A stretch of 64,000 bases of DNA from Tahibacter soli (GTDB lineage: Bacteria; Pseudomonadota; Gammaproteobacteria; Xanthomonadales; Rhodanobacteraceae). The notes under the pieces were generated by a model that saw only the letters and a program-made list of their open reading frames with translations, was not told the origin of the DNA and made no database searches. The stretch spans positions 62,001-126,000 of the forward strand of contig NZ_JAOVZO020000023.1 in the NCBI RefSeq assembly GCF_025717065.2. Reading direction: 5' to 3'. This document shows, in pieces, positions 43,659-62,621 of the stretch. Position 1 is the first letter of the stretch, and each line of letters begins with the position of its first letter. A program made the translations under genes and the position numbers.

Positions 43659-45025
43659 GCGTCGCCGAACACGCGCTGCCCGCGGCCGAGCCCGGCATCC
43701 TGTCGCCGCAGCGGCGGGCGATGACGATCGGGCTCGTCTCGCTCGTCTCGCTCGTCGCGTTCGAGGCGCTGGCGGTGGCCACCGCGATGCCGACCGCCGC
43801 GCAGGCGCTCGACGGACTGTCGCTGTACGCGCTCGCGTTCGGCGGCGTGATCGCCGCGAGCGTCGTCGGCCTCGTGGCCGCCGGGCGCTGGTGCGACGTG
43901 CGCGGCGCGGCCGTGCCGCTGCAGGCCGGCGTCGTCGCGTTCGTCGTCGGCCTCGCGCTCGCGGGGCTCGCGCCGAACATGCCGTTGTTCGTCGCCGGCC
44001 GCATCGCGCAGGGGTTCGGGCAGGGCCTGCTGCTCGTCGCGACGTACGTCGTCGTCGCGAAGGTGTATCCGTCGCCGCTGCGGCCGCGGTTGTTCGCCGC
44101 GTTCTCGGCCGCGTGGGTCGTGCCGTCGCTCGTGGGGCCCACGATCAGCGGCCTCGTCGTCGAGCACGCCGGCTGGCGCTGGGTGTTCCTCGCGGTTCCT
44201 TTTTTGGCATTGCCCGCATTGTGGATGTTGCGGCCGGGCCTGCGCGCGCTGCCGCCGCCGGCACCGAGCGACGCGTCGGTGGGATTCGCGCACCGGCGCA
44301 TGGCCTGGTCGCTCGTCGGTGCGGCCGGCGCGTGCGCGCTGCACTACGCCGGGCAGCGTCACGACGCGGCCGGCTTCGCGCTGATCGCCGCCGCGACGGT
44401 CGCCGTCGCCGTGTGCGCGTGGCGGTTGCTGCCGGCCGGCGTGCTCGTCGCGCGGCGCGGCCTGCCGGCCGTGATCGCGCTGCGCGGCATCGCCGCGGCA
44501 GCGTTCTTCAGCACCGAAGTATTCGTGCCGCTGATGCTGTCGCGCGAACGCGGGCTGTCGCCGGTCTGGGCGGGGCTGGCGCTGACGGTCGGCGCGCTCG
44601 GCTGGTCGGCGGGCTCGTGGTACCAGGGCACGATGAGCAGAAAGGGCCCGCGCCCGAGCGTGCTGCGGCTCGGCATGACGTTGATCGGCGGCGGTGTCGC
44701 GACCGTCGCGGCAACCGCGTGGGCGCACGTGCCCGCGGCGGTCGGCATCGCCGGCTGGACGATCGCGGGGCTCGGCATGGGCCTGGCGTACCCGATCCTC
44801 GCGGCGCTCGCGCTGGACCTGTCGGCGCCGGGCGAGGAGGGCGTCAACAGCTCGGCGTTGCAGCTGTCCGAAGCGCTGACGGTGGCGACGGTGCTCGCGC
44901 TCGGCGGCTCGCTGTTCGCGACGCTGCTGGAAACGTCGCCGACGCTGGCGTTCGTCGCGAGCTATGCGGTGAGCGTGGCGTTGGCGCTGCTCGGGATGGT
45001 GGTGGCGGGGCGGTGCAGGCGCTAG
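43655..45025 (+). CDS. MFS efflux transporter in the SoxR-controlled operon
   Basis: The ~456-residue product is a major facilitator with about 12 or more hydrophobic helices. It begins LVSLVSLVAFEALAVATAMPTAA and has the motif A-like loop GRWCDVRGA, then RIAQGFGQGLLLVATYVVV. It resembles drug-exporting DHA-type permeases. I propose TTG 43655, which overlaps the previous stop as TTGA with GGAGG 8 bases upstream. GTG 43661 and ATG 43721 are alternatives, the last of which cuts the N-terminus short. The gene ends convergently, sharing its last bases with the flavoprotein gene at 45022. Confidence 0.85.
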   Translation: MSVAEHALPAAEPGILSPQRRAMTIGLVSLVSLVAFEALAVATAMPTAAQALDGLSLYALAFGGVIAASVVGLVAAGRWCDVRGAAVPLQAGVVAFVVGLALAGLAPNMPLFVAGRIAQGFGQGLLLVATYVVVAKVYPSPLRPRLFAAFSAAWVVPSLVGPTISGLVVEHAGWRWVFLAVPFLALPALWMLRPGLRALPPPAPSDASVGFAHRRMAWSLVGAAGACALHYAGQRHDAAGFALIAAATVAVAVCAWRLLPAGVLVARRGLPAVIALRGIAAAAFFSTEVFVPLMLSRERGLSPVWAGLALTVGALGWSAGSWYQGTMSRKGPRPSVLRLGMTLIGGGVATVAATAWAHVPAAVGIAGWTIAGLGMGLAYPILAALALDLSAPGEEGVNSSALQLSEALTVATVLALGGSLFATLLETSPTLAFVASYAVSVALALLGMVVAGRCRR

Positions 45026-46458
45026 CCTGCGTGAACGATGCCTTTCTGCAGCAGCCACCCCGCAATCCGCGCCGCCTCGCGACGCGGCATGCGCTGCGAC
45101 CAGCGCTCGATCAGCTGCGCGAGGTTCGCCGCGTCGGCGATGCCGGCCAGCAGCGGCGCGAGTTCGACGCCCGAGAGCCACGCCAGCGGACGCGCGAGCG
45201 CCGGGTGGTCGAGCGCGGCGCGCAGCTCCACCACATCGTCGACGACGCACGGCAGTTCGACGAGTCGCGATTCGCGCGCGAGCGTGATTTTCGCGCGCAG
45301 CGCCGCATCGACGTCGGTCGGCGCGAGCGCTGCGTCCGGCACCGGTTCGCGCTCGTCGGCGGGCGGCGCTTCCGCGTCGGGCCACGCGAACGGTGCGGCC
45401 TGCGCCTGCCAGAACGCGTGTTCGCGCGCCGGCCACGCCTGCGCGTAGTAGTCGCGCGCCCAGCGGCCGTGCCGGGCGATCGATTCGACGCGGCGCGCGT
45501 CGTAGAACGTCCGCGCGAGCGCCGCGCGTTCCGGATGCCGCATCGACGTATGAAATGCCGTTACGGCCTGCAATGAAAATCGCATCGCCTTTTCGACACC
45601 GCTCGCCGACAGCGGATCGAGCGCGAACGCCGCGTCGCCGAGGCGCACCCGGCCCGGCTGCCACGCGTCGCGCACGAGACACGCGCCGGCCGCGCACCCG
45701 TTCAGTGCGGTCACGGCCGGCGCCGTCGCGAGCGCCGTCATGAGCCCGCTCGCCGCGAACGTCGTGCGCAGCCACATCTCGCGCGACCGTGCCTGCGCGT
45801 GGCGCGGCGTGTCCGGGTCGCACAGCGCCATCGCGCGATAGCGGCCGTCCGGCAGCGGCGAACCCCACAGCCAGGCGTCGGTCAGCGCTTCGATGCGTGT
45901 TTCGGCGGGTGCGAGCGCGCCGTCGTAGTCGAGCCACAGGGCAACGAGCGGCGGCGCCGTCGCGACGACGCCGTCGCGGCCGGCCGGCGGCCGGCCGCCC
46001 GCGTCGAACACCGTGTGCGCGACGATGCGCTCGTGCGCGGCGCCGGTCTGCACGACCGCGCGCCAGTGTTCGCCGTCGCGTTCGAGCACCGCCACTTGCG
46101 CCGACGCGAAGCACCGCACGCCGCGTTCGCGCGCGAGATCGAACAGCGCGCCGTCGAACGCCGCGCGGTCGACGATGGCATTGCCGCCGGCGTGGAAGAC
46201 GGCGTCGCGCGACGTCCACGCGACGCGCGCGGCGAGGCCCGCGCGCCGAGGTACGCGCGCGAGCGCGTCGTTCGCGTCGAGCAGGCCGACGATGTTGCCG
46301 ATGCCCGGCGTCAGCGATTCGCCGACGTTGCCGCGCGGCGCCGCGTTGCGTTCGACCACCGCCGTGCGATAGCCGAACTGCGCCAGACGCAGCGCGGCGG
46401 TGAGGCCGGCCGGCCCCGCGCCGACGATCAGCGCGTCGACCGCGAGCGCCGCGTTCAC
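45022..46458 (-). CDS. LodB/QhpG-like FAD-dependent monooxygenase
   Basis: The 478-residue protein has an N-terminal FAD-binding motif (ALIVGAGPAGLTAALRLA, Gly13-Gly15-Gly18) and the GxGESLTPGIG region seen in tryptophan halogenase/LodB-type flavoproteins. It continues with the RLGDAAFALDPLSASGVEKA block. LodB is required to form the cysteine tryptophylquinone cofactor of LodA, and QhpG is a similar flavin monooxygenase for a related cofactor. It starts with GTG overlapping the radical SAM gene stop (GTGA), so it closes a five-gene operon. Membership of this class rather than a halogenase is inferred from context. Confidence 0.78.
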   Translation of the reverse strand: MNAALAVDALIVGAGPAGLTAALRLAQFGYRTAVVERNAAPRGNVGESLTPGIGNIVGLLDANDALARVPRRAGLAARVAWTSRDAVFHAGGNAIVDRAAFDGALFDLARERGVRCFASAQVAVLERDGEHWRAVVQTGAAHERIVAHTVFDAGGRPPAGRDGVVATAPPLVALWLDYDGALAPAETRIEALTDAWLWGSPLPDGRYRAMALCDPDTPRHAQARSREMWLRTTFAASGLMTALATAPAVTALNGCAAGACLVRDAWQPGRVRLGDAAFALDPLSASGVEKAMRFSLQAVTAFHTSMRHPERAALARTFYDARRVESIARHGRWARDYYAQAWPAREHAFWQAQAAPFAWPDAEAPPADEREPVPDAALAPTDVDAALRAKITLARESRLVELPCVVDDVVELRAALDHPALARPLAWLSGVELAPLLAGIADAANLAQLIERWSQRMPRREAARIAGWLLQKGIVHAG

Positions 46459-47813
46459 GGCGCGTCGCCGAACCAGTGCGGCGCGAGCCGCGCGAGCCGG
46501 CCGTGCGCCTGGATCGTGTAGTGCAGCCAGCCGCGGATGTAGTCACACGCGCTGCGGCCGCGCGCGAGCACTTCGTGGTGACAGCCGCCGCCGCACAGAT
46601 AGCGCGCCCAGCAGCCGCCGCACGGGCTTTGCGCGTGCACGTGGCGCGCGGCGAGCCACGCGCGCTGCCGCTCGACGTCGATGCCGGTCGACACATGCCC
46701 GAACTGCGCTTTCTCGTCGCCGACGAAACGATGGCACGCGGCGAGTTCGCCGTCGGCCGACACGCCGAAATAACCCGCGCCGGCGCCGCAGGGGTAGGGC
46801 CGGTGCGTGCCGCGATGCAGCTCGCGCAGCGCGTTGATCATGTTGAGGAACGGATAGCGCCGGCCGGCGACCACGTGTTCCTCGAACGCCAGGCCGCACG
46901 CGATCATGGCTTCGAGCATCGCGTCGAGATCGTACGTCGCCATTTCGTCGCGGCCGTTCGGCGCGCGCAGCAGCGGCGAGAAGCCGACGCTGTGAAAGCC
47001 CATGTCGACGAAGAGATCGAGCGTTTCGGGCAGGTTCGCGTTCGACGGCGTGACGGTGACGCGCGCCGACACCTGCATCTTGCGCTGGCGTTCGACGAGC
47101 GGCGCGATCTGCTTGACGATGAGGTCGAACGAGCCGCGGCCGTTCTTGAGCGGGCGCAGGCGATCGTGCTGTTCGGCCGGGCCGTCGAGGCTCACCGTCA
47201 CCGCGAAGCCGTGCTCTTCGAAGAAATCGGCGTCGTGCGGTTTGACGAGCGTGCCGTTCGTCGTGATCGAAAACCCGATGCGCACGCCGCGCCCGGCCGC
47301 CGCGCGCACGGCGTACTCCGTCGCCTCGCGCAGCACGTGCCGGTTCTGCAGCGGTTCGCCGCCGAGAAACGCGAGATTGACCTTCGCCCCGGGTTCCGCG
47401 CCGCCGACCAGGAGATCGATCGACTGTTTCGCGACGTCGAACGACATCTGCCGTTGCGGTCCGCCGAACGCGCCCTGCTGCGCGTAGCAATAGGTGCAGC
47501 CGAGGTTGCACTTCTGCGCGATGGCGAGCGACAGCGCGTGCGCCGGCATCGGCGCGAGCGGCGCGTCGTCGATCGCGTGCCGCGCGTCGATGCCGCTCGA
47601 CGCGACCAGCCGCGCGACGGCGTCGTCGCCGCGATCGAGCGCGGCGCGAAACGCGTCGGCGACGGCGTCGGGCAGGTCGTACAGGCGGCTGCCGTCGACG
47701 ACGAACAACTGCGCGCCGTGCGGCGCATTCAACAAATGCACCTGTGCACTGCGCGGCACGGCGCCGGCGCGCACCTGCGCGGTCATCGGAGCGGCGATCG
47801 CCGCGGCGCTCAT
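46455..47813 (-). CDS. Radical SAM/SPASM maturase
   Basis: The 452-residue enzyme has the radical SAM cluster motif CNLGCTYC (near residue 103) followed by Y-A. It also has GGEPLQNRHVLREA and a SPASM-type C-terminal auxiliary-cluster region with CGGCWARYLCGGGC and a later Cys (SACDYIRG). Similar enzymes (anaerobic sulfatase maturases, QhpD) modify protein or peptide substrates, for example by forming thioether bonds. The substrate here is presumably one of the LodA-like products encoded upstream. ATG 47813 overlaps the previous stop as ATGA. The longer upstream frame is a shadow. Confidence 0.85.
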   Translation of the reverse strand: MSAAAIAAPMTAQVRAGAVPRSAQVHLLNAPHGAQLFVVDGSRLYDLPDAVADAFRAALDRGDDAVARLVASSGIDARHAIDDAPLAPMPAHALSLAIAQKCNLGCTYCYAQQGAFGGPQRQMSFDVAKQSIDLLVGGAEPGAKVNLAFLGGEPLQNRHVLREATEYAVRAAAGRGVRIGFSITTNGTLVKPHDADFFEEHGFAVTVSLDGPAEQHDRLRPLKNGRGSFDLIVKQIAPLVERQRKMQVSARVTVTPSNANLPETLDLFVDMGFHSVGFSPLLRAPNGRDEMATYDLDAMLEAMIACGLAFEEHVVAGRRYPFLNMINALRELHRGTHRPYPCGAGAGYFGVSADGELAACHRFVGDEKAQFGHVSTGIDVERQRAWLAARHVHAQSPCGGCWARYLCGGGCHHEVLARGRSACDYIRGWLHYTIQAHGRLARLAPHWFGDAP

Positions 47814-48619
47814 GAGCTTTCCGCGTCCTTGCCGCGCACGATGAAGCTGAGCAGGCCCTGCCAGTCCTTGAACAGGTCGTCGTACGAGTACAGGCGCGTG
47901 TCGGTGCGGTTGTCCGGCACGTAGCTGCCGGTGCGCTTCTTCGCGAGCCACATGTCGCCGTGCGAGAGGCCGTCCTTCGACGGTTCGACGTTGACGTAGT
48001 CGGGCCGGCTCGCGGCCCAGTAGTAGCACGCGCATTCGCGGTAGTCGTTCTGCCACGGCGCGCACAGGCCCTGCGTGAGTTCGCCGGGCTTGAGAAGATC
48101 GTTCGCGATCGCGGCGGTGTCGCCGTCGAAGAATCGGCGCACGCGCAGCGTCACCGGCAGCGTTTCGGCGCCGGCCGCGATCACTTCGGTCGTCGCGTTC
48201 TTGTGCGTCGTGAATTCGCACACGACGTCCTGGCCCTGCTTGGCCATGATGCGCGCGAGCGAGTTCGACCACTCCATGAACGACACGGCGTTCGGGTTGG
48301 CCGTGCTGCCGAGCGTGCCGCTGTCGCCGCCGGGAAACACCGGGCCCTGCGTCAGCACGTTCGTGTCGAAGCCGTCGACGCGCAGCAGGCGGCGCGTGAC
48401 GAGATCGTCGTACTTCGGATCTTCGGCGGCGACGACGTAGTTGTTGTTTTCGACCAGCACGATGCCTTCGAACGTGCGCCGCCACAGGTTGCGGAAGTCG
48501 AATTCGAGGCCGGGAAAGCAGTTGGAAATCGCCGAGCGCGGCAGCACCGACGCGGGATTGCCGGTACCGCGATAGTGCAGCTGCGCGGCGAGATTGCCGG
48601 GTTTGAGTTTCTCGGTCAT
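47810..48619 (-). CDS. LodA-like C-terminal domain protein with candidate quinone-cofactor site
   Basis: The 269-residue protein carries segments resembling the C-terminal part of LodA/GoxA-type quinoprotein oxidases. These are AISNCFPGLEF, LTQGLCAPWQNDYRECACYYWAASRPDYVN, with Cys186, Cys196, Cys198 and Trp201. In LodA a Cys and Trp in the corresponding area form cysteine tryptophylquinone. Here C196 or C198 and W201 are the candidates, by inference. No signal peptide is present. ATG overlaps the stop of the preceding LodA-N-like gene. In known LodA proteins N- and C-terminal parts are one chain, so this is a split version. Confidence 0.7.
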   Translation of the reverse strand: MTEKLKPGNLAAQLHYRGTGNPASVLPRSAISNCFPGLEFDFRNLWRRTFEGIVLVENNNYVVAAEDPKYDDLVTRRLLRVDGFDTNVLTQGPVFPGGDSGTLGSTANPNAVSFMEWSNSLARIMAKQGQDVVCEFTTHKNATTEVIAAGAETLPVTLRVRRFFDGDTAAIANDLLKPGELTQGLCAPWQNDYRECACYYWAASRPDYVNVEPSKDGLSHGDMWLAKKRTGSYVPDNRTDTRLYSYDDLFKDWQGLLSFIVRGKDAESS

Positions 48620-50040
48620 GGCTTGCGCTCCCCGTGCACGACGGCGGGTGCGGCGTACGCGCCGCCGCGGAACATCGCCTGCGTCGCGGCCTTGATCACC
48701 ATGTCGATGTGGCGCCGCGTCAGGCACAGGCCGCGGCCGTCGGCGCCGCGCATCAGCGCCGGCATCTTGCGCCGCGCGGTATCCGACAGGTCGCCGATCT
48801 CCTCGGGCCGGCGCAGCACGTCGGAGAACCACGGCGCGGAACCGGCCGACAGCGCGCTGAACACGCGTTCGTGCAGCGCGCGCAGCGCGAGGTTGTCGAC
48901 GATCGACGGCGCCGCGAGCGGTTCGTAGTAGCGTTCGAAGTCGTTCGTGTCCTGGCGCGCCATCGTGCTCGCGACGTTCCAGCGGCCGTTCAGCGCGTTG
49001 CCGTTCATCACGGCGGTGTTCATCAGGCGCACGGTTTCGAGCGCGCGGCGCACGAGTTCCTCCGCTTCGTCGATCGGCACCGGCGCGTCGTCGTCGTACG
49101 CCGGGCCATACAGGATTTGCTCGAGTTCGTCGGAGATCACGCGCACCGGCAGCGTATCGGGCGCGAACGCGGGCGGGCCCGCGCCGATATGCGCCTGCGC
49201 GGTCAGCGTCGAACCGTCGCCGAGCGCGAGCGTCACGCGCGCGTAGCCGTCGCATTCGTCGTCGAGATAGCCCCAGCTCACCTGGTACGCGCCGTCGGCG
49301 TAGCCGGCGTAGATCTGCGCGGGATTGGTCAGGGTCGGGCCGACGCTTTCTTTATAACCGCGCCATTTTCCTTTTTTATCGTCGTACAGGATCAGCGCGT
49401 CGTCGTCGATGATCGGGTCGGGTTCGACCTGCGTCGGGCTCGTATGGCGTTCGAGCGCCGAGCCGTAGACGTGGCCGCCGGCAGGTGTGAAGCGCAGGCG
49501 AATCTGCGGGAATGCGGCGGTCGGCTTGACGAACTGCACCCAGCCGAGCGGCAGCGTGCGGTTCTCGACGAAGTTCGGACAGGTGCCGACGAGCGCGCGG
49601 CGCTTGTGGTCGGTCAGCGGGTCGACGCACGCGTGAATCTGGTCGTTCTCGTCGTTCGTGCGGCGATAGAGCTTGATGTTGCCGACCTCGACGCGCCATT
49701 GCACGGCGTCGACGCCGAGGCCTTCACGCGCGAGCAGCGCAAGGTCGAGCGGCACGAGCTCGTCCGGCGCCTCGCTCGTGCGCGCGAACACTTCGAGAAA
49801 CGGCGCGACCGGCCGTATGCGGCGGTTCGCGTCCTTGAAGCGGATCGTCTCGGGCACGTAGGCGTTCGTGATCTCGCCGGTGTTTTCGTCCACGACGAGC
49901 GTCGTCTGCGGCACGATGCGGCGGTAGTCGAGCGGCTGCTCGGGATCGACGACGAGGTCGAACGCCTCGAGCGGTTCGCTCGCGGCGCCCAGCCGCCCGA
50001 CCGCGAGCGGCGGCAGGATACGCAACTCGATGATGGGCAT
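48616..50040 (-). CDS. LodA-like N-terminal domain protein
   Basis: The 474-residue product resembles the N-terminal region of LodA-type oxidases. These are PPLAVGRLG (compare the PxIGIARVG start), IRFKDANRRIRPVAPFLEVF, and VQWRVEVGNIKLYRR. The C-terminal third contains GRGLCLTRRHIDMVIKAA. No signal peptide or CXXCH motif is visible. It lies 10 bases after the ferritin-like gene, and its end overlaps the LodA C-terminal-like gene by 4 bp. The assignment rests on motif likeness read by eye and needs profile confirmation. It is otherwise a protein of unknown function. Confidence 0.6.
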   Translation of the reverse strand: MPIIELRILPPLAVGRLGAASEPLEAFDLVVDPEQPLDYRRIVPQTTLVVDENTGEITNAYVPETIRFKDANRRIRPVAPFLEVFARTSEAPDELVPLDLALLAREGLGVDAVQWRVEVGNIKLYRRTNDENDQIHACVDPLTDHKRRALVGTCPNFVENRTLPLGWVQFVKPTAAFPQIRLRFTPAGGHVYGSALERHTSPTQVEPDPIIDDDALILYDDKKGKWRGYKESVGPTLTNPAQIYAGYADGAYQVSWGYLDDECDGYARVTLALGDGSTLTAQAHIGAGPPAFAPDTLPVRVISDELEQILYGPAYDDDAPVPIDEAEELVRRALETVRLMNTAVMNGNALNGRWNVASTMARQDTNDFERYYEPLAAPSIVDNLALRALHERVFSALSAGSAPWFSDVLRRPEEIGDLSDTARRKMPALMRGADGRGLCLTRRHIDMVIKAATQAMFRGGAYAAPAVVHGERKP

Positions 50041-50050
50041 GTCGACGGTC

Positions 50051-51490
50051 CTAAGTGAGTGAAAGGTTCACGTCGCCGGCGAGGATGCGCAGCGCGGTCT
50101 GGCGCATCGCGCGGTCGGCTTCGTGCAGCGACAGCAGGTACGTGTGCCGTTCGGGCGGCGAGGCGACGAGCAGCGCGTCGACCAGCCGGTCGGCGGCGTC
50201 GATCAGGTCGACGTGCAGGCGCCAGCGGTTCGGCTCGCCGAGCGGCGAATCGAGCGTGTAGGGCATCTGGAACGGCGGCCCGGCGCAGACGCCGGGGCGC
50301 GAGCCGAGCGGCAGCTGCATCAGGATTTCCGAGATCGCGCGCAAATTGTACATTTCTCCGAAAGTGGCGTTGATGATCGCGCCGCGCGGCGTATACGCGC
50401 CGGCCGCGGCGAGGCCGCCGGCGAGCGTGAAGCTGTGCGTGAGATACGTCAGCAGCATGCGGTAGCGCAGATTGTGCAGTGTCGCCCACAGCCGCGATTC
50501 CGGATGCGTGATCGCGCTCGTCGTCTCGTCTTCGGCGAGACCTTCGGCCGGGTCCATCCCCGGATCGAGCGACACGTAAGGGTTGATTGCGACCGGCCGC
50601 GACGCCGACCAGCCCTGGCCGGCGCAGGCCTTCATCTCGACGTACACCTTGAGAAATCGCGCGAAGTGCGACGGCGCGTCGGGATCGGCCGACACCGGCG
50701 CTTCGCCCTGCTGCGCGATCTGCGTCATCGCGTTGACCGCGTCGTCGCGGCTGGCGAGCGGAACGACGAGCACGTCGGGCGTCGGCTTCGGGTTCGCGCC
50801 GGTCGAATTGCCGCGCGCGCCGCCGGCGTAGCCGCGGCCCCATTCGTCCCAGCTCGCCTGGAACGGATAGGTGTCGGCCTGGAACGCGGCGTCGGGTACG
50901 TAGTCCGGGTCCTGCAGCAGCGAGATCAGCAGCGTAAACAGTTCGCCGACGCGGTGCGGGTCGTCGACTTCCTGATGCACCTTCTCGCGGATCTCGTCGG
51001 CGAGCGGGCCGGTCCAGTCGGCCGGCGATTCGGCGTAGACGTATTTGGCGAGCGAGTCGAGCGTCAGCGGCTCGAGCGTGAACGGGAACGGATAGAACGG
51101 CACGTCCCACGGATAGTCTTCGCGCCCGAGGTTCAGCGGCGATCCGATCAGGCGCAGCGCGTTCTGCACGCTGATGAGATGGCCCATTTCCTCCTTGGCG
51201 ATGCCGAGGATCACTTCCTGCCAGCCGCGCACCGTCGCGCGGTGCGGCGCCGGCACCTGCGGGCCGCCGAGCGAGTACGCGGCGTACAGGTACTGCACCA
51301 TCAGCGCGTGTTCGATTTCGGCGTCGACGTGGAGCAGGTAGCTCACGTAGTCGCGCGGCGAGAATTCCGATTCGTAGGGGCCGGTCGCCGGCGCGGCTGC
51401 GCCGCCGACGAACAGGCGTTTGCGCGCCGCGGCGGTTTTCCCGGGCGCGAGCCCGAGCACCCCGAGGTGGCGCCTGAGCGAAGAACGCAT
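50051..51490 (-). CDS. VioB-type ferritin-like domain protein
   Basis: The 479-residue protein contains a ferritin-like fold of the kind at the C-terminus of VioB/RebD iminophenyl-pyruvate dimer synthases. Its helices are VDAEIEHALMVQYLYAAYSL and ILGIAKEEMGHLISVQNALRLIG, with Glu and ExxH ligands for a di-metal centre. The N-terminal VioB portion is absent. It starts at 51490 with GGGGGA 5 bases upstream. It is the first gene of the minus-strand arm, and the intergenic palindromes lie just upstream. The role is unknown, but oxygen-dependent chemistry on a metal centre is likely. No violacein-type partner set is visible. Confidence 0.78.
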   Translation of the reverse strand: MRSSLRRHLGVLGLAPGKTAAARKRLFVGGAAAPATGPYESEFSPRDYVSYLLHVDAEIEHALMVQYLYAAYSLGGPQVPAPHRATVRGWQEVILGIAKEEMGHLISVQNALRLIGSPLNLGREDYPWDVPFYPFPFTLEPLTLDSLAKYVYAESPADWTGPLADEIREKVHQEVDDPHRVGELFTLLISLLQDPDYVPDAAFQADTYPFQASWDEWGRGYAGGARGNSTGANPKPTPDVLVVPLASRDDAVNAMTQIAQQGEAPVSADPDAPSHFARFLKVYVEMKACAGQGWSASRPVAINPYVSLDPGMDPAEGLAEDETTSAITHPESRLWATLHNLRYRMLLTYLTHSFTLAGGLAAAGAYTPRGAIINATFGEMYNLRAISEILMQLPLGSRPGVCAGPPFQMPYTLDSPLGEPNRWRLHVDLIDAADRLVDALLVASPPERHTYLLSLHEADRAMRQTALRILAGDVNLSLT

Positions 51491-51618
51491 AGTTCCCCCG
51501 GGCGAGCTGCCTTGGTCGAATGTGTATTTGTGGGCATTGCGATTTGTACGGACCGAGTATTGCAGTTGCGCGGCGGTCTGCGCCCTGTCGGATCGCGCAG
51601 GGTAGGTCGCGGCGCGTA

Positions 51619-51636
51619 CCTGTAAAATCTTACAGG
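51619..51636. promoter_or_regulatory. Perfect 7+7 palindrome in the divergent intergenic region
   Basis: CCTGTAAAATCTTACAGG has 7-bp arms (CCTGTAA and TTACAGG) around AATC. It lies between the two divergent arms of the redox locus, 129 bases from the minus-strand start and 110 from the plus-strand start. It is a good candidate for a regulator's operator. Confidence 0.55.
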
Positions 51637-51676
51637 CCCACGCGGACCCGGTCGCGGCGTACCATCCGGTCGCGTT

Positions 51677-51690
51677 GTACATGTGTACAC
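51677..51690. promoter_or_regulatory. TGTACA-TG-TGTACA palindrome in the divergent intergenic region
   Basis: TGTACATGTGTACA contains two TGTACA hexamers separated by two bases, which make a near-perfect dyad. It lies 55 bases upstream of the di-heme protein start. A binding site is plausible. No regulator gene sits in the locus. Confidence 0.45.
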
Positions 51691-51745
51691 GTATCAAACC
51701 CACGCTAATTGCCCGGCGCGCGGCCGGTTGTAGAGGGGATGGCGA

Positions 51746-53515
51746 ATGAACGGCAATAACCGCTCGACGGCGCGTCGCGCGCCGATGTTCTGTGCGCTCG
51801 CGCTCACGATGTCCGCGGCGCTGGCGCAGGATCCGGCGATCACGCCGGCCGTGACCATCGATCAGAACAAGATCCATGACTATCCGCTCGCGAAGATCCT
51901 CGAGTCCGGCGGCGACTTCCACACCACGCCGTTCACGCCGGAGGACGGCCACGGCGAAGGCCAGGACGGACCGCGGTCGAAGCAGCGGCAGCTGTTCTAC
52001 GCGCAGGCGTTTCCGAACTTTCCGTTCCTGCGTCTGAACGGCATCGACTCGCAGAGCTGCTACGAGTGCCACAACACGATCGGCAGCTACGTGCCGCCCG
52101 ACTACACGCCGGGTTCGAAGGCGCTCCTGCGCAAGCCCAGCCCCGTCGGCGGTTCGGCCGGCGTCGCGAGCAACGCGTTCATCAATCCGAATTTTCCGAC
52201 CAACCTGACGCAGCTCGTGCGCAATCCGCCGCACGTGTTCGGCACGGGCTACGGCCAGTCGCTCGCCGCCGAGATGTCGACGCTGCTCGGCCTGCAGGCG
52301 GCGATCGCCACGCAGGTCGCGCAGGCCAAGGCGCAGCAGAGCGGCAAGTCGTCCACGCAGTCCTGGGCGCTGTCGGCGAAGGGCCTGTCGTTCGGCACGT
52401 ACGCGGTGACCTGCATACCGCAGGGCGATTGCACGCCCGACGCGAGCAAGGTCACCGGCGTGCAGTCCGACCTCATCGTGCGTCCGTTCCAGTGGAAGGG
52501 CATCGCCTCGTCGGTGCGCCACTTCGTGCGCGACGCGATGGACTTCCATTTCAGTATGCAGGCGGTTGAGAAGGTCGGGCACTTCGACTGCGACCGCGAC
52601 GGCAAGGTCGACGAAATGACGGTCGGCAACGTCACGGCGCTGGCCTCGTTCGTCGCGATGACGCGTCCGCCGTACGTCGCGATCCCGACCGACCCCGCCG
52701 GCAAGAAGAGTTTCGAGCGCGGCAAGGCGATCTTCGAAGGCACCGCGGCCGACCTCAAGGGCACGCTGTCGGGCAGCATGTGCGCCACGTGCCACGTGCC
52801 GCAGATGACGCTCGCCGCGCCGCTGCTCGTCATCGAGAATCCGCCGGTACCGAACGTGACCGATCCGTCGGGCTGTCCGACCGAGACGACGCTGATCAAC
52901 GCCGTGCCGCCCGAGCAGCATGCGACGACGAAGCAGGTCAAGGCGCGCGTCGCGGCGATCCTCGCCAAGCAGGCGAGCCTGAAGTCCGCCGTGTCGGCCG
53001 AGGCGGTCGAGTCGGTCGCGGCTTCGGCGCGGTCCGACGCGGTGCTCGCGTCCGCGCCGCCCTCGAAGCTCGATCCGCTCGACCTTCTCGTCGACCTCAC
53101 CAAGCCTGGCGACGCGCCCGCCTATGTGTATCCGCGCCTTCAGGCGCAGGGTGACGGCCAGGTGGTGGTGCCGATCCTGTCCGACCTGCGCCTGCACAAC
53201 ATGGGCTCGGGCCTCGCCGACAGCGTGTCGCAGGGCGTCGACGTGTCGACCACGCCGCCGGTGCCGCCGCCGCTGTTCCTCACGCGTCCGCTGTGGGGCG
53301 TGGCCGACACCGGTCCGTGGCTGCACGACGGCCGCGCGCGCACGTTGAAGGAAGCGATCGGCTTTCACAACAGCACGGGCAGCGAGGCGACGCCGATCAT
53401 CCAGGCGTTCGACAAGCTCTCCAAGGAAGACCAGCAGGCCGTCGTGAACTTCCTGCTCGCGCAGCGCCTGCCGATCGCGCAGGACATCACGCAGGGCGCG
53501 ACGGCGTCGAAGTGA
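51746..53515 (+). CDS. Exported di-heme cytochrome c oxidoreductase (DHOR/MauG-like)
   Basis: The 589-residue product has a signal sequence (ending near SAALAQ) and two c-type heme motifs, C105-x2-C108-H and C346-x2-C349-H. The C-terminal block PILSDLRLHNMGSGLAD and GVADTGPWLHDGRARTLKEAIGFHN is the di-heme peroxidase/DHOR signature. Members of this class either reduce peroxide or, like MauG, form tryptophan-derived cofactors in a partner protein. It lies periplasmically. AGAGGGG precedes the ATG. It starts the plus-strand arm, divergent from the ferritin-like gene. Electron exchange with the split LodA-like protein is inferred. Confidence 0.85.
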   Translation: MNGNNRSTARRAPMFCALALTMSAALAQDPAITPAVTIDQNKIHDYPLAKILESGGDFHTTPFTPEDGHGEGQDGPRSKQRQLFYAQAFPNFPFLRLNGIDSQSCYECHNTIGSYVPPDYTPGSKALLRKPSPVGGSAGVASNAFINPNFPTNLTQLVRNPPHVFGTGYGQSLAAEMSTLLGLQAAIATQVAQAKAQQSGKSSTQSWALSAKGLSFGTYAVTCIPQGDCTPDASKVTGVQSDLIVRPFQWKGIASSVRHFVRDAMDFHFSMQAVEKVGHFDCDRDGKVDEMTVGNVTALASFVAMTRPPYVAIPTDPAGKKSFERGKAIFEGTAADLKGTLSGSMCATCHVPQMTLAAPLLVIENPPVPNVTDPSGCPTETTLINAVPPEQHATTKQVKARVAAILAKQASLKSAVSAEAVESVAASARSDAVLASAPPSKLDPLDLLVDLTKPGDAPAYVYPRLQAQGDGQVVVPILSDLRLHNMGSGLADSVSQGVDVSTTPPVPPPLFLTRPLWGVADTGPWLHDGRARTLKEAIGFHNSTGSEATPIIQAFDKLSKEDQQAVVNFLLAQRLPIAQDITQGATASK

Positions 53516-53525
53516 GGAGCCGCTC

Positions 53526-55247
53526 ATGACCACCACGGCATCATCCAATACCTTGGCGCTGAACCGTCCGCCGGATACGGCGGACGTCCTCATCGTCGGC
53601 GCGGGCGTTTCCGGCCTGTACTGCGCCTGGCGGCTGTTGAACCGGGATCCGAACCTCAAGATCGCCATCGTGGAGAAGATCGGCCGCATCGGCGGCCGGC
53701 TCGACACCGATCGCGTGATCATCCTCGACGACGCCGGCAAGCCGGTCGAAGTCAAGGACGAGGAAGGCGGCATGCGCTTCAACTTCGGCATGCAGGAGCT
53801 CATCGAGACCGCGCACGACCTCGGCCTCGACAAGCGCATCGTGCCGTTCGGCATGGGCAACGACAACAACCGCTACTACGTGCGCGGCCGTGCCTTCACG
53901 GTCGGCGAGTCGAAGGCCGACGGCAACGCGATCTGGAGCGAGCTGTACAACCTCGACGTGCGCGAGCAGGGCCTGTCGCCCGGCGATCTCATCGACAGCG
54001 CGTATCGCGCGATTCTCGCCGAGAACCGCTGCGACGCGCCGTCCGATCCGACGCCGCAGTTCTGGCAGACGTTCCGCAACACGTTCACCTACGACGGCAT
54101 CAAGCTCAACGAGTGGGGGCTTTGGAGCCTCCTCATGCGCTTCGGCTATTCGCAGGAATGCGTCACGATGCTGTCGGACGTCGTCGGCTTCGCCGGCCCG
54201 TTCCACTCGTCGTCGAACGCGGGCGACGCGCTGCAGATCCTGCTCGATTTTCCGAACGACCCGAAGTTCCACGCGTTCGACCAGGGCTTCTCGACGCTGA
54301 TCGACGCGCTCGCCGCGAAGATCAAGGGCAAGGCGACGACGACGATCGGCACGACGGTGACGTCGCTCGAAGCCGGCGAGGGCGGCGCGATCCGCGCGTG
54401 CTGGGCGTCGACGCCGGGCGTGTTCCCGGGCGACGGCGAACGCGGCACGGTCACTGCGGCCAAGGTGATCCTCGCGCTGCCGAAGAACGCGATCGAAACG
54501 CTCGCGGCGGCGTCGCCGCTCTTGACGTCGGACACCGCGCAGTACGAACGCTTCACGCGCAACCTCGGCGGTTCGGTCGGCATGGTGCTGGCGAAGATGA
54601 ACCTGTACTACCACAACGCGTGGTGGCGCGACGGCAGCACGAACCGCGCGCCGATCGCCGACGGCCCGTCGTTCACCGACCTGCCGGCCGATTCGTTCTA
54701 CGTGTTCGATCCGATCACGGGCGAATCGGAAACCGGCCCGGCCGCGTTGACGCTGTATTGCGATTTCAACAACGCGGACTTCTGGGAAGAGCTGCAGGAG
54801 ATCGGACCGAAGTTCACCTCGCCGCTGCAGGAGCACTACAACCGGCAGTCGCCGCAGGTGCTGTTCGCGGCGTCGCAGGCGGTGGTGGACGAGATGACGC
54901 GTCAGCTCACCGACGTGTTCGCGACGTTCGCGATCCCGAAGCCCGTGCTGACGAGCTACCGGCGCTGGGGCGACAGCGAATACTTCGGCTATGCCTACCA
55001 CCAGTGGGGCCGCGGCGCGAACGACATCGAGATCATTCCGGCGCTGGCGAAGCCGTATGAAAAATTGGATCTGTACACCTGCGGCGAATCGTGTTCGGAC
55101 CAGCAGGGCTGGGTCAACGGCGCGCTGCGCTCGGCGGAGATCGTGTTGACGCAATACTTCGGACTGGCGCCGCTGATTCCCGATGCGGCGAACTGGGTCA
55201 ATCCGCTCGACACGTCAGGGCAGCCGGAGGTTCTGGCGGTCGCTTAG
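53526..55247 (+). CDS. FAD-dependent amine oxidase family protein
   Basis: The 573-residue flavoprotein has an N-terminal dinucleotide-binding motif (ADVLIVGAGVSGLYCAWRL) and GGRLDTDRV. The C-terminal FAD block is YTCGESCSDQQGWVNGALRSAE. It is of the flavin amine oxidase/amino acid oxidase class. No signal peptide is seen. GAGGAG precedes the ATG, and it starts 10 bases after the di-heme gene stop, so the two form an operon. Amino acid oxidases of this kind (VioA, RebO) act with VioB-type enzymes in bisindole pathways, which makes the nearby ferritin-like protein notable. The substrate is unknown. Confidence 0.83.
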   Translation: MTTTASSNTLALNRPPDTADVLIVGAGVSGLYCAWRLLNRDPNLKIAIVEKIGRIGGRLDTDRVIILDDAGKPVEVKDEEGGMRFNFGMQELIETAHDLGLDKRIVPFGMGNDNNRYYVRGRAFTVGESKADGNAIWSELYNLDVREQGLSPGDLIDSAYRAILAENRCDAPSDPTPQFWQTFRNTFTYDGIKLNEWGLWSLLMRFGYSQECVTMLSDVVGFAGPFHSSSNAGDALQILLDFPNDPKFHAFDQGFSTLIDALAAKIKGKATTTIGTTVTSLEAGEGGAIRACWASTPGVFPGDGERGTVTAAKVILALPKNAIETLAAASPLLTSDTAQYERFTRNLGGSVGMVLAKMNLYYHNAWWRDGSTNRAPIADGPSFTDLPADSFYVFDPITGESETGPAALTLYCDFNNADFWEELQEIGPKFTSPLQEHYNRQSPQVLFAASQAVVDEMTRQLTDVFATFAIPKPVLTSYRRWGDSEYFGYAYHQWGRGANDIEIIPALAKPYEKLDLYTCGESCSDQQGWVNGALRSAEIVLTQYFGLAPLIPDAANWVNPLDTSGQPEVLAVA

Positions 55248-55436: not shown

Positions 55437-56171
55437 TCAGCGCGCCAACACCTTCCGCAACCCCTCGCTATACGTCCGGCTCACCTTCAGCACCGTCCCG
55501 TCGTGCAACCGCGCGACGGCATCGCGGTTCGTCGCCGCGCGCAGGTCGGCCACGCGATCGATGCGCACGATCGTCGAGCGGTGCACGCGCATGAACACGC
55601 GCGGGTCGAGCCGGCCTTCGAGCGCGTGCAGCGGCTCGCGCAAGAGGTGCACCTTGCTCGCCGTGTGCAGGCCGCAGTAGTCGCCGATCGCTTCGATCCA
55701 GTCGATGTCGCTCACGTGCGCGACCACGACGCGGCGGCCGACGCGCACCGCGAAGCGCGCCGGATACTCAACGCCGCCCGATTCCTTCGCCTCGAGTTCG
55801 GCGCTGCGACGCGCGGCGCGCACGCGTTCGAGCGCGCGCGCGAAGCGGTCGTCGTCGATCGGCTTCAACAGATAGTCGACCGCCTCGGCGTCGAACGCGC
55901 GCAGCGCGAAGCGGTCGTATGCGGTGAGAAAAACGACGTGCGGCCGGCGCGCCGGCGCGAGGCGTTCGAGCAGGCCGAAGCCGTCGACGCCGGGCATGCG
56001 CACGTCGAGAAACACGACGTCGGGCGACAGTTCGGCGATCGCGCGCGCGGCGTCGTCGGCGTTCGCGCATTCGCCGACGACCATGAAGTCGGCGCGGCCG
56101 GCCAGGCGCGCGACGACGCCTTCGCGCGCGAGCGGTTCGTCGTCGACCACGAGGACGCGCAGGGCCGTCAT
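55437..56171 (-). CDS. LytTR-family response regulator
   Basis: The 244-residue protein has a receiver domain (VLVVDDEPLAREGV, phosphoacceptor Asp in PDVVFLDVRMPGVDGF, Thr/Lys in LTAYDRFALRAF and LLKPIDD) and a C-terminal LytTR DNA-binding domain (VSDIDWIEAIGDYCGLHT, EGRLDPRVFMRVHRSTIVRID). LytTR regulators often control virulence factors, autolysis or competence genes. ATG 56171 overlaps the histidine kinase stop by 4 bp, so the pair is co-transcribed from the minus strand. The target is unknown. It is the second of two genes. Confidence 0.92.
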   Translation of the reverse strand: MTALRVLVVDDEPLAREGVVARLAGRADFMVVGECANADDAARAIAELSPDVVFLDVRMPGVDGFGLLERLAPARRPHVVFLTAYDRFALRAFDAEAVDYLLKPIDDDRFARALERVRAARRSAELEAKESGGVEYPARFAVRVGRRVVVAHVSDIDWIEAIGDYCGLHTASKVHLLREPLHALEGRLDPRVFMRVHRSTIVRIDRVADLRAATNRDAVARLHDGTVLKVSRTYSEGLRKVLAR

Positions 56172-57244
56172 GCGTCGCGCTCCGCCGCGATCGGACGGGC
56201 CGGCAGTTCGACGCGCGCCGCGCCGCCGCCGCCGGGCGGTCGCGACAGAACGAGCCGGAAGTCGTCGTCGTACAGATGCCGCAGCCGGCCCGCGACGTTG
56301 CTGAGGCCAACGCCGTAGCGCACGGGTTCGACGAGATCGACGCCGTCGTTCGCGACGGTCAGCACGAGCCGCTCGCCGTCGCGGCGTATCGCGATGTCGA
56401 GCCGGCACGCGCGCCGGCTCGGCGCGATGCCGTGACGGATCGCGTTCTCGACGAGCGGCTGCAGAAGCAGCGGCGGCATGCCGAGATCGAGCGATGCGGG
56501 ATCGACGTCCGGGCGCACGTCGAGCCGGTCGCCCAGGCGTACGCGTTCGATGTCGAGATAGCCGAGCGTCAGTTCCAGTTCCTCGGCGACGCGCACCTCG
56601 CGCGTGACGTCGGCGTCGAGCGTCAGACGCAGGAAATCGCCGAAGCGCGCGATCATGCGCGTCGCGTGCGCGGTCTGCTGGGTATACACGAGCGTCGAGA
56701 TCGCGTTCAGCGTGTTGAAGATGAAATGCGGCTGGATCTGGTAGCGCAGCGCGCGCAGTTCGGCTTCGCGCGCGAGCGCGGTCGCGGCGATCAGGCGCTC
56801 GCGCGCTTCCTGCGCCGCGGTGTAGTAGCGAAATCCGAAGTACAGGCCGACGATGCCGCCGAGCAGCGCCCAGGCGCCGATCGCGCCGGAAAGACTCTCG
56901 AACCAGAGCGATTTCGCGCCCATGCCGGGCGGGTCGAGCCAGCGGTCGAACGCCTCGGAGCCGGCGGCGCACAGGTACGCGAGCACGTAGGCGAACGTCA
57001 GCGCCGCGGCGAGCGCGCGGCCGATCGCGGCGTGCGCGTACAGCCAGCGGCAGACGATGAGCAGCGGCAGGCTGCACGCGAGGCACGCGATGGTCAGCAC
57101 TACGCGATACAGCACGTACGTCGGGTACGCGAAATTCGGCAGCGTGCCGAGCGCGGAAACGAGCACGCACGCGCCCCAGCTGGCGACGAGCAGCGTGGCG
57201 AAACTGCGGTCGGGGTTCTCTCGCGGTGCGGTCGGCGTGTTCAC
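56168..57244 (-). CDS. LytS/AlgZ-type sensor histidine kinase
   Basis: The ~358-residue kinase has an N-terminal region with about four to five membrane helices (LLVASWGACVLVSALGTL, LYRVVLTIACLACSLPLLIV, LAAALTFAYVLAYLC, WALLGGIVGLYFGF). The His_kinase domain has the H-box RYQIQPHFIFNTLNAIS, and the HATPase has LLLQPLVENAIRHG and GVGLSNVAGRLRHLY. This is the LytS/FimS-type histidine kinase class. No ATG fits well. I propose GTG at 57244 because it directly precedes the helices. A longer frame exists to 57424 but runs over the start of the divergent gene. The stimulus is unknown. Confidence 0.85.
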   Translation of the reverse strand: MNTPTAPRENPDRSFATLLVASWGACVLVSALGTLPNFAYPTYVLYRVVLTIACLACSLPLLIVCRWLYAHAAIGRALAAALTFAYVLAYLCAAGSEAFDRWLDPPGMGAKSLWFESLSGAIGAWALLGGIVGLYFGFRYYTAAQEARERLIAATALAREAELRALRYQIQPHFIFNTLNAISTLVYTQQTAHATRMIARFGDFLRLTLDADVTREVRVAEELELTLGYLDIERVRLGDRLDVRPDVDPASLDLGMPPLLLQPLVENAIRHGIAPSRRACRLDIAIRRDGERLVLTVANDGVDLVEPVRYGVGLSNVAGRLRHLYDDDFRLVLSRPPGGGGAARVELPARPIAAERDA

Positions 57245-57377
57245 GGCGGCAGGATAGCCCGTTGCGCCGCGCTCGCGTAACGCTTCGTCGCGGGCGCGGC
57301 ACGGCTCGTTGCGCGGCGCTTGAGGCGCGCACGGCGCCCGGTCGAAGCTCGCGTCCCCGATCCGTCGAGAGAACGCC

Positions 57378-58106
57378 ATGATGATTTTTCGACCGCTGCT
57401 GGCTGCCGCGTTCGCGTTGGCCATGTTCGCCGCGCACGCCGCGAAGCCTGAGGTCTATGTGCTCGGCACGCTGTACAAGAAGCACGAGACGGTCGGCAGC
57501 TACGATCTTGCGGCGCTGTCGCGCGTGATCGAGGCGATCGCGCCGGACGTCGTCGTGCTCGACGTCAACCCGACGGAGCTGGCCGAACGCAAGGTGTTTC
57601 CCGGCAAGGTCGAATACACGCAGGTGATCTTTCCGTACGTCGACAAGCGCGGCGTCAAGGCCTACGCGGGCGAGCCGCCGGAGCCGACGTTCGGCGAAAT
57701 CGTCGCGGCCGTGATCAAGGCGCGCGAGGATCTCAAGGCGCGCAATCCGGCCGGCGCCGCGGCGATGGAGGCCTACCGCAAGGCGACATACGAAGCGTTG
57801 GCGGCATTGTGGAAAGATGCGGCCGACCCGAACGGCGCGGCGAGCGAGGCGGTGATCGAAGGACTCAAGCGCTACGAGGCGCGCATGATCGGGCCGGTGG
57901 AGGCCGACTCGAACCGGCGCTGGGACACGCATGCGGCGAGCGTGACGCTCACGGCGGTCAGGGAAAATCCCGGCAAGCGCGTGCTGCAGATCGCGGGCGT
58001 CGAAAACCTGCCGCTGATCCGCGCGACGCTGCGCGCAAGCGGCGAGGTGGAGCTCGTCGACATGGAGGCGTGGATACGCGCGAACGCGTCAGCGCCGGCG
58101 CGTTGA
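57378..58106 (+). CDS. Exported protein of unknown function, TraB/GumN-like in part
   Basis: The 242-residue protein has a signal peptide (LLAAAFALAMFAAHAA, cleavage near residue 22). Its mature part begins KPEVYVLGTLYKKHETVGSYDLAALSRVIEAIAPDVVVLDVNPTEL. This alternation (VLGTxY, then an alpha-helix and PDVVxLD) faintly recalls TraB/GumN or related proteins, but the HxxH-type residues are not clear. It is divergent from the LytTR two-component operon with a 133-base gap. A MITE-like element starts 36 bases after its stop. I do not assign a function. Confidence 0.7.
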   Translation: MMIFRPLLAAAFALAMFAAHAAKPEVYVLGTLYKKHETVGSYDLAALSRVIEAIAPDVVVLDVNPTELAERKVFPGKVEYTQVIFPYVDKRGVKAYAGEPPEPTFGEIVAAVIKAREDLKARNPAGAAAMEAYRKATYEALAALWKDAADPNGAASEAVIEGLKRYEARMIGPVEADSNRRWDTHAASVTLTAVRENPGKRVLQIAGVENLPLIRATLRASGEVELVDMEAWIRANASAPAR

Positions 58107-61718: not shown

Positions 61719-62621
61719 CTACGGCCAGAAAATCCACGCGAGAATGCCGCCGAAGATCGCGAACTTGAGCACGTAGTAGAGCGGCTTGTTCCATTCGCGC
61801 AGCGCCTTGGCCTTGAGGCGGATCGCGTAGAACGACGCGAACACGCGATTGAGGCCGCCGGTCTTGTCGCCTTCCTGGTTCGGCGACGCGCCCGCCGCGA
61901 CGAGATGGCGCGCGATGAAGCGGTTGAGCGCGCCGGCCCAGCGCCAGCGCATCGGGCGCTCGACGTCGCAGAACAGGATGATGCGGTCGCGGTCGGTGCC
62001 GTTCTCGGCGCGGTGGATGTAGGTTTCGTCGAACATCACGGCTTCGCCGTCGCGCCAGCTGTAACGCTCGCCGTCGACTTCGATGTAGCAGCGATCGTCG
62101 CCCGGCGTGACGAGGCCGAGGTGATAGCGGATCGATCCGGCGTACGGATCGCGGTGCTTGCGCAGTTCGCTGCCGGGCGGCAGCTCGGCGAACATCGCGG
62201 CCTTGACGCTCGGAATCGTGTTGAGAATTTCCGTGGTCTTCGGGCACAGCTCCCGCGCGGACGGATGCGCGTCGTCGTACCACTTGAGATAGAAGCGCTT
62301 CCAGCCGCGGCGGAAGAACGAATTGAAACCGACGTCGTTGTACGACGAGGCCGCCTTGATCTGCTGCGCGTCGCGCAGCGCGAGCGCCTCGGCGCGGATT
62401 TCCTGCCAGCTCGCGGTCAGCGGTTTGAGATCGTCGAAGAACTCGGTCGAGACGTAAGGCTTCGTCGGCACGCGCGAACAGGCGTACATGAACACGTTGA
62501 CCGGCGCCATGAACATCGAGTGGTCGGTGAGCTGGCGGAAGAATTTCAGACGCACGCGCCCGCGAAAATGCACGTACAGCGTGCTGCCGACGAAGACGGC
62601 CAGGATCACCCACTTCAACAT
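61719..62621 (-). CDS. lpxO: Lipid A 2-hydroxylase LpxO (aspartyl/asparaginyl beta-hydroxylase family)
   Basis: LpxO is an inner-membrane Fe(II)/2-oxoglutarate-dependent enzyme that adds a 2-OH group to a secondary acyl chain of lipid A. The 300-residue protein has an N-terminal membrane helix (LKWVILAVFVGSTLYVHF), the beta-hydroxylase core with HRDPYAGSIRYHLGL (His-x-Asp) and the distal His in YIHRAENGTDRDRIIL, and a C-terminal helix (AIFGGILAWIF). ATG 62621 gives the normal length. The upstream start at 62744 adds an Arg-rich leader. It is a single gene on the minus strand. Confidence 0.88.
   Translation of the reverse strand: MLKWVILAVFVGSTLYVHFRGRVRLKFFRQLTDHSMFMAPVNVFMYACSRVPTKPYVSTEFFDDLKPLTASWQEIRAEALALRDAQQIKAASSYNDVGFNSFFRRGWKRFYLKWYDDAHPSARELCPKTTEILNTIPSVKAAMFAELPPGSELRKHRDPYAGSIRYHLGLVTPGDDRCYIEVDGERYSWRDGEAVMFDETYIHRAENGTDRDRIILFCDVERPMRWRWAGALNRFIARHLVAAGASPNQEGDKTGGLNRVFASFYAIRLKAKALREWNKPLYYVLKFAIFGGILAWIFWP

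Follow-up and report, generated by a model that had tools for sequence, protein, structure and literature searches.

Here we describe an operon of five genes on the minus strand of a Tahibacter soli contig (NZ_JAOVZO020000023.1), located within a stretch of 64,000 nucleotides (positions 62,001 to 126,000; hereafter the window, whose own numbering is used throughout). The operon (45022-51490) encodes LodA-N and LodA-C, which jointly make up one split protein of the LodA fold, together with a radical S-adenosylmethionine (SAM) enzyme, a flavoprotein and a ferritin-like protein. We consider it probable, at roughly 70%, that this gene set gives rise to a cysteine tryptophylquinone (CTQ) enzyme of the LodA/GoxA fold, which would be stapled by the radical SAM enzyme, completed by a flavoprotein of the QhpG type and employed in the oxidation of an amine or amino acid, likely by O2. 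The key evidence, which is absent from a first-pass annotation of the same DNA, is the presence inside LodA-C of Cys-Asp pairs of the type known from QhpC, the CTQ-bearing subunit of quinohemoprotein amine dehydrogenase (QHNDH).

A scan of a genome collection yielded 214 pattern matches, of which 199 were confirmed and the best 80 kept; all counts out of 80 refer to those loci. Window proteins were assigned to families with Pfam and NCBIfam models, and the features of the operon are the following:

45022..46458, minus strand: QhpG-like flavin adenine dinucleotide (FAD) monooxygenase, 478 aa (NF049967 QhpG, 281.4 bits)
46455..47813, minus strand: QhpD-like radical SAM/SPASM enzyme, 452 aa (TIGR03906, 321.9 bits)
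47810..48619, minus strand: LodA-C-like chain, carrier of the predicted CTQ site, 269 aa (LodA_C, 24.3 bits)
47999..48064, minus strand: core motif C186-A-P-W-Q-N-D192-Y-R-E-C196-A-C198-Y-Y-W201-A-A-S-R-P-D207 of LodA-C (pattern in 80/80 loci)
48503..48520, minus strand: C34-F-P-G-L-E39 of LodA-C, which may form a third, optional Cys-Glu pair comparable to C7-E16 of QhpC
48616..50040, minus strand: LodA-N-like chain, N-terminal part of the LodA fold, 474 aa (hhalign P 1.9e-10)
50051..51490, minus strand: ferritin-like protein, putative di-iron partner, 479 aa (PF12902, 1.9e-26)

Neighbours in the series flavoprotein, radical SAM enzyme, LodA-C and LodA-N share an overlap of 4 bp each, and a gap of 10 bp lies between LodA-N and the ferritin-like gene. 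This tight operon faces two plus-strand genes (51746-55247), likewise 10 bp apart; coordinates, overlaps and gaps bear out the layout of five plus two genes given in the first-pass annotation.

Central to our reading is the core motif of LodA-C. The pattern C.PW..D...C.C..W.....D is present in 83/83 matches among open reading frames (ORFs), from all 80 loci, and the residues invariant among 14 diverse LodA-C sequences include L185, C186, P188, W189, D192, C196, C198, Y200, W201, A202, P206 and D207. For comparison, the QhpC motif was taken from all six genuine QHNDH loci compared. The published pairs of QhpC are Cys7-Glu16, Cys27-Asp33, Cys37-Trp43 (the CTQ) and Cys41-Asp49 (PMC8172795). The residues of Paracoccus kondratievae QhpC, counted by hand, coincide with these pairs after removal of a 28-residue leader (for the leader, see PMC7876137). 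Three of the pairs are matched in LodA-C, namely by C186-D192, C196-W201 and C198-D207, the first with a spacing of 6 that equals that of QhpC C27-D33. A joint LodA-C/QhpC pattern gave 102 matches in 2.05 million ORF residues, three of them copies of the window locus, and all lie in loci with LodA-C or QhpC; the 80 kept loci have one match each, always inside LodA-C. To judge from its sequence, C34-E39 may be the counterpart of QhpC C7-E16: the Cys is found in 88 of 92 readable homologues and replaced by A, S or F in 4, with one of 93 being unreadable.

The relationship of the two chains to LodA is not obvious from single sequences, since their scores fall below the Pfam cut-offs (LodA_N, 14.0 versus 26.3 bits; LodA_C, 24.3 versus 25 bits). 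Comparison with hhalign connects both to canonical LodA (LodA-C, P 2.1e-8; LodA-N, P 1.9e-10), and profile and structure comparisons agree on a LodA fold over the full length; the earlier proposal of a split LodA has thus held. D192 and C196 of LodA-C align with the Asp and the Cys of the LodA segment EPGDLTKRMACPWQADFFNC (2ymw), the last Cys of which we take to be Cys516. As in the LodA/GoxA family, the predicted CTQ Cys (C196) is found four residues past a conserved Asp (D192), in PWQxD...C. At the site of WWPAQRP in LodA, LodA-C has YYWAASRP, in which the Trp is kept and the surrounding motif altered. CTQ in LodA joins Cys516 to Trp581 (PMC4417212). Both extra cysteines are absent from canonical LodA in 12/12 readable motifs (15 loci); in one of these, L128, a Cys sits one position further on, as it does in LodA itself. 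Apart from this, the CTQ Cys of canonical LodA-like proteins in L122, L128 and L131 lies few residues from the WW pair (e.g., ECNTAWWP), near the QhpC spacing. Two canonical LodA genes (L114 and L115, on contigs C8 and C14), flanked by flavoprotein genes, are present elsewhere in the T. soli genome.

The radical SAM enzyme has its best match in the QhpD model TIGR03906 (321.9 bits, 6e-96), followed by the PapB model NF047865 (265.3 bits); because the former score lies under the cut-off of 453, we regard the enzyme as QhpD-related but of a separate family. CX3CX2C is kept in 79/79 of the radical SAM enzymes, and the SPASM cysteines in 61/79 by a strict and 78/79 by a looser pattern, the exception being the frameshifted L097. 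QhpD forms Cys-Asp and Cys-Glu thioethers and PapB forms Cys-Asp thioethers (PMC11002830, PMC9413430); by analogy, the window enzyme is predicted to make Cys-Asp thioethers in LodA-C. The flavoprotein match spans the whole QhpG model and passes its cut-off of 240 with 281.4 bits, as compared to 101.8 for GoxB and 83.2 for LodB. With QhpD and QhpG as best models, the presumed likeness of the maturation genes to those of QHNDH stands, and a flavoprotein first described as LodB/QhpG-like can by score be assigned to the QhpG rather than the LodB type. QhpG, in a ternary complex with QhpD, adds two hydroxyl groups to the CTQ Trp of QhpC that carries its crosslinks; the substrate of LodB and GoxB is a Trp already mono-hydroxylated (PMC7876137). 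A corresponding dihydroxylation of Trp201 of LodA-C en route to CTQ is predicted from this precedent. The same radical SAM profile is positive in 6/6 QHNDH loci and 0/15 canonical LodA loci (stretches of 8 to 17 kb, several with the LodA gene near a contig end), while the flavoprotein profile is positive in 14/15 of the latter. The radical SAM gene and the extra cysteines are thus present together in QHNDH and window-type loci, and absent together in LodA.

All five genes occur in the same order on one strand in 75/80 loci, so that their grouping, already remarked in the first-pass annotation, is not due to chance. Neither of the outcomes that this annotation had set as refuting its proposal, LodA-like genes without kinship to LodA or a gene set that never recurs, was obtained. 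Individually, LodA-C is found in 80 loci, LodA-N and the radical SAM enzyme in 79 each, the flavoprotein in 78 and the ferritin-like gene in 76; LodA-N and LodA-C are fused in one chain in 44/80. Of the five exceptions, two (L094 and L099) are truncated where their contigs end, L078 is described below, L091 is devoid of the ferritin-like gene though about 2 kb of upstream sequence is present, and L029 has a LodA-N fragment of only 64 residues and no ferritin-like gene. Going by record titles, the 80 loci belong to Pseudomonadota, Bacteroidota, Planctomycetota, Acidobacteriota, Myxococcota, Actinomycetota, Verrucomicrobiota and Gemmatimonadota. Loci beyond the 80 add Cyanobacteriota. The distribution is patchy, since only 2 of 61 close genomes (own included) carry the operon: the window genome and one of the same genus. 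The operon also resides on plasmids. A tblastn search with LodA-C returned 19 plasmid records, 13 of which were examined and 12 of those analysed by profile; LodA-N, LodA-C and the radical SAM enzyme were each present in 12/12, and the flavoprotein in 12/12, four via weaker profile matches alone (25 to 101 bits).

Canonical LodA-like genes can be close to the operon. Together with a flavoprotein, they adjoin it or lie within about 10 kb in L039 (11771-14854), L058 (11894-16110) and L077 (2-2985), and the same distance applies to a canonical LodA-like gene on plasmids NZ_CP132742, NZ_CP062180, NZ_CP141049 and NZ_CP088279; in Embleya NBC_00896 and NZ_CP132745 it is far from the operon.

The ferritin-like protein is a near-constant member of the set. 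In an alignment of 36 sequences, E60, E100, E101, H104, E263, H275, H352 and E379 do not vary, a Glu/His set compatible with a di-iron site; of the 76 ferritin-like proteins, 73 contain EE[MQ]GH and 66 QGE[AGS]. The model (predicted local distance difference test, pLDDT, 82.5) has a single PDB match at E up to 0.001, the Caulobacter ferritin-like protein 3hl1 (E 3.3e-4). The gene is directly upstream in five plasmid loci (L008-L012), divergent rather than collinear in L013 and L014, and neither annotated nor detected by profile in L015. In four distant loci, from Microvirga, Streptomyces, Nostoc and Rhizobium sophoriradicis, LodA-C and a ferritin-like domain (matched with 17 to 36 bits) form one fused protein; in Nostoc this domain is PF12902. 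Dyp-type peroxidase genes occur near two distant loci of this fused kind (L017:3700-4968 and L019:12630-14168). Some canonical LodA loci also have a ferritin-like gene: the profile detects it in L131 (138.8 bits) and weakly in L114 (16.5 bits), and in L127 it is only annotated; in L114, from the T. soli genome, the gene is upstream of canonical LodA. A ferritin-like gene beside lodA-like genes has been noted for fungi (PMC4417212).

From gene set, gene order, homology, fold similarity and conserved residues we infer the chemistry, substrate, acceptor and role of the ferritin-like protein, with QHNDH as the analogy for the maturation steps and LodA/GoxA for the reaction. The LodA-fold CTQ enzyme would consist of two chains here, and many other bacteria would make it as one. 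In a first step LodA-C would be stapled by the radical SAM enzyme, much as QhpC is by QhpD: Cys-Asp thioethers would join C186 to D192 and C198 to D207, with perhaps a further staple at C34-E39. The QhpG-like flavoprotein would then hydroxylate W201 twice, and closure of W201 with C196 would afford CTQ. The mature enzyme may oxidise an amine or amino acid; its acceptor would most likely be O2, as for the oxidases LodA and GoxA, a reading favoured because there is no conserved heme subunit. The ferritin-like protein might serve in assembly, in iron or peroxide handling, or in Trp oxidation.

Several observations weigh against this proposal. Foldseek superpositions are loose (template modelling score 0.21-0.40, root-mean-square deviation 9-21 A), and the core motif lies in the least confident part of the LodA-C model (pLDDT 42-55), so that its modelled geometry is tentative. 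The radical SAM enzyme stays under the QhpD cut-off, L078 has neither this enzyme nor the flavoprotein within a 16.8 kb stretch, and the five-gene set includes no QhpE, QhpF or heme subunit. The joint pattern was written from the same sequences and therefore documents specificity rather than an independent test. Spacings in LodA-C differ from those in QhpC (Cys-Cys 2 versus 4, Cys-Trp 5 versus 6, Cys-Asp 9 versus 8), and the profile match between the two is weak (P 0.02, 26 columns, Prob 2.3%), so that convergence is possible. The QH_gamma model NF037958 gives LodA-C 13.7 bits (E 0.044) and its cut-off of 50 is not reached. The QhpC profile compared to LodA gives P 4e-4, with controls at 0.81 and 0.54. 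Common descent of LodA-C and QhpC, as far as these alignments go, is likely but not proven.

Two other readings keep part of the proposed chemistry. The operon might encode an ordinary LodA-type CTQ enzyme that needs no more than the flavoprotein for its completion, with a different target for the radical SAM enzyme, such as the ferritin-like protein or some unseen peptide. Kinship with LodA is secure and 0/15 canonical LodA loci have such a radical SAM gene, but the residues that separate LodA-C from canonical LodA are the crosslink cysteines of QhpC, and the enzyme is QhpD/PapB-like, which makes this reading unlikely. We also think it improbable that the protein is thioether-stapled while its Trp is hydroxylated or halogenated by the flavoprotein to a product other than CTQ. 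Several neighbouring flavoproteins are annotated as tryptophan 7-halogenase, and the C196-W201 spacing is 5 as opposed to 6 in QhpC; against this, the window flavoprotein is above the QhpG cut-off, and C196 and D192 align with Cys and Asp in 2ymw.

The two plus-strand genes opposite the operon, which the first-pass annotation counted as parts of one pathway, are the following:

51746..53515, plus strand: di-heme cytochrome with DHOR-like C-terminus, accessory (DHOR, 1.6e-11; CYECH and CATCH)
53526..55247, plus strand: FAD amine-oxidase family protein, accessory (PF01593, 7.3e-23)

A seven-gene pathway, in which a MauG-like di-heme cytochrome and the FAD amine oxidase help to make the cofactor, would suit the divergent arrangement in the window, and an Azospirillum di-heme oxidoreductase is likewise divergent to ferritin-like and canonical LodA genes. 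This reading is nevertheless hardly tenable. By iterated profile, a full-length cytochrome homologue exists in 1/80 loci (L032, 46% identity by BLASTP), with a 98-residue partial BLASTP match in L095, and the cytochrome reaches 16.1 bits with the MauG model TTQ_mauG, whose cut-off is 443.85; MauG-type chemistry is thus dispensable. Amine-oxidase relatives, mostly distant, occur in 10/80 loci by iterated profile (22-29% identity by BLASTP), and of four tested with the Pfam amine-oxidase model only that of L078 passes. Both genes are neighbours outside the core set, and from the idea of a pathway pooling parts of several systems there remain the split LodA, the recurring set and QHNDH-like maturation. 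Alternatively, the cytochrome could act as an electron acceptor local to this strain. Just past the amine oxidase gene, a LytTR-type two-component system (histidine kinase and response regulator) is encoded on the minus strand (55437-57424). In Azospirillum brasilense (L127:2338-9037), the oxidoreductase faces ferritin-like, canonical LodA and flavoprotein genes, i.e. the window layout without the radical SAM gene. No match to the QHNDH alpha/beta subunits was found among the seven window genes (Pfam, NCBIfam) or seven flanking genes (Pfam only).

CTQ enzymes are already known, and we rate the stapling of LodA by a radical SAM enzyme as the new element, as far as the literature searched goes, in which no description of a radical-SAM-stapled LodA was found; the main text of a survey of lodA-like genes does not contain the word radical (PMC4417212). 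We lean towards a third class of tryptophylquinone enzymes, the radical-SAM-stapled LodA-fold oxidases, widespread in bacteria, in which case LodA and QHNDH would owe their CTQ modules to one ancestor, with stapling lost or gained between them. Such proteins would represent a natural intermediate for the evolution of protein-derived quinones and a small gene set for testing whether a radical SAM enzyme can staple a large protein. They would also suggest a likely role for genes annotated as hypothetical, tryptophan 7-halogenase, radical SAM or ferritin-like in many genomes.

Compared to LodA/GoxA, which function with LodB/GoxB, the window has two chains where 44/80 relatives have one, LodA-C has two extra cysteines with Asp partners, and the Trp segment reads YYWAASRPD where LodA/GoxA has WWPAQRP; 79/80 window-type loci but 0/15 canonical LodA loci (some cut at the contig end) include a radical SAM gene, and the flavoprotein scores higher with the QhpG model than with that of LodB. 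PapB-type ranthipeptide maturases, the second-best radical SAM match, would share the Cys-Asp thioether chemistry, yet act on small Cys-rich peptides, whereas LodA-C, the presumed substrate in the operon, is a protein of 269 aa. With QHNDH (QhpC, QhpD, QhpG) the operon has in common the order Cys-Asp pair, CTQ Cys, Cys, Trp, Asp, as well as a QhpD-kind radical SAM/SPASM enzyme and a QhpG-like flavoprotein; it differs in that its five genes include no alpha/beta subunit, QhpE protease or QhpF exporter, and in placing the CTQ segment inside a LodA-fold protein, whereas the QHNDH subunit is of about 9 kDa. LodA/GoxA and QHNDH, the two CTQ systems described in the literature surveyed and usually treated separately, would thereby be linked by an operon that joins the scaffold of the former to the maturation kit of the latter.
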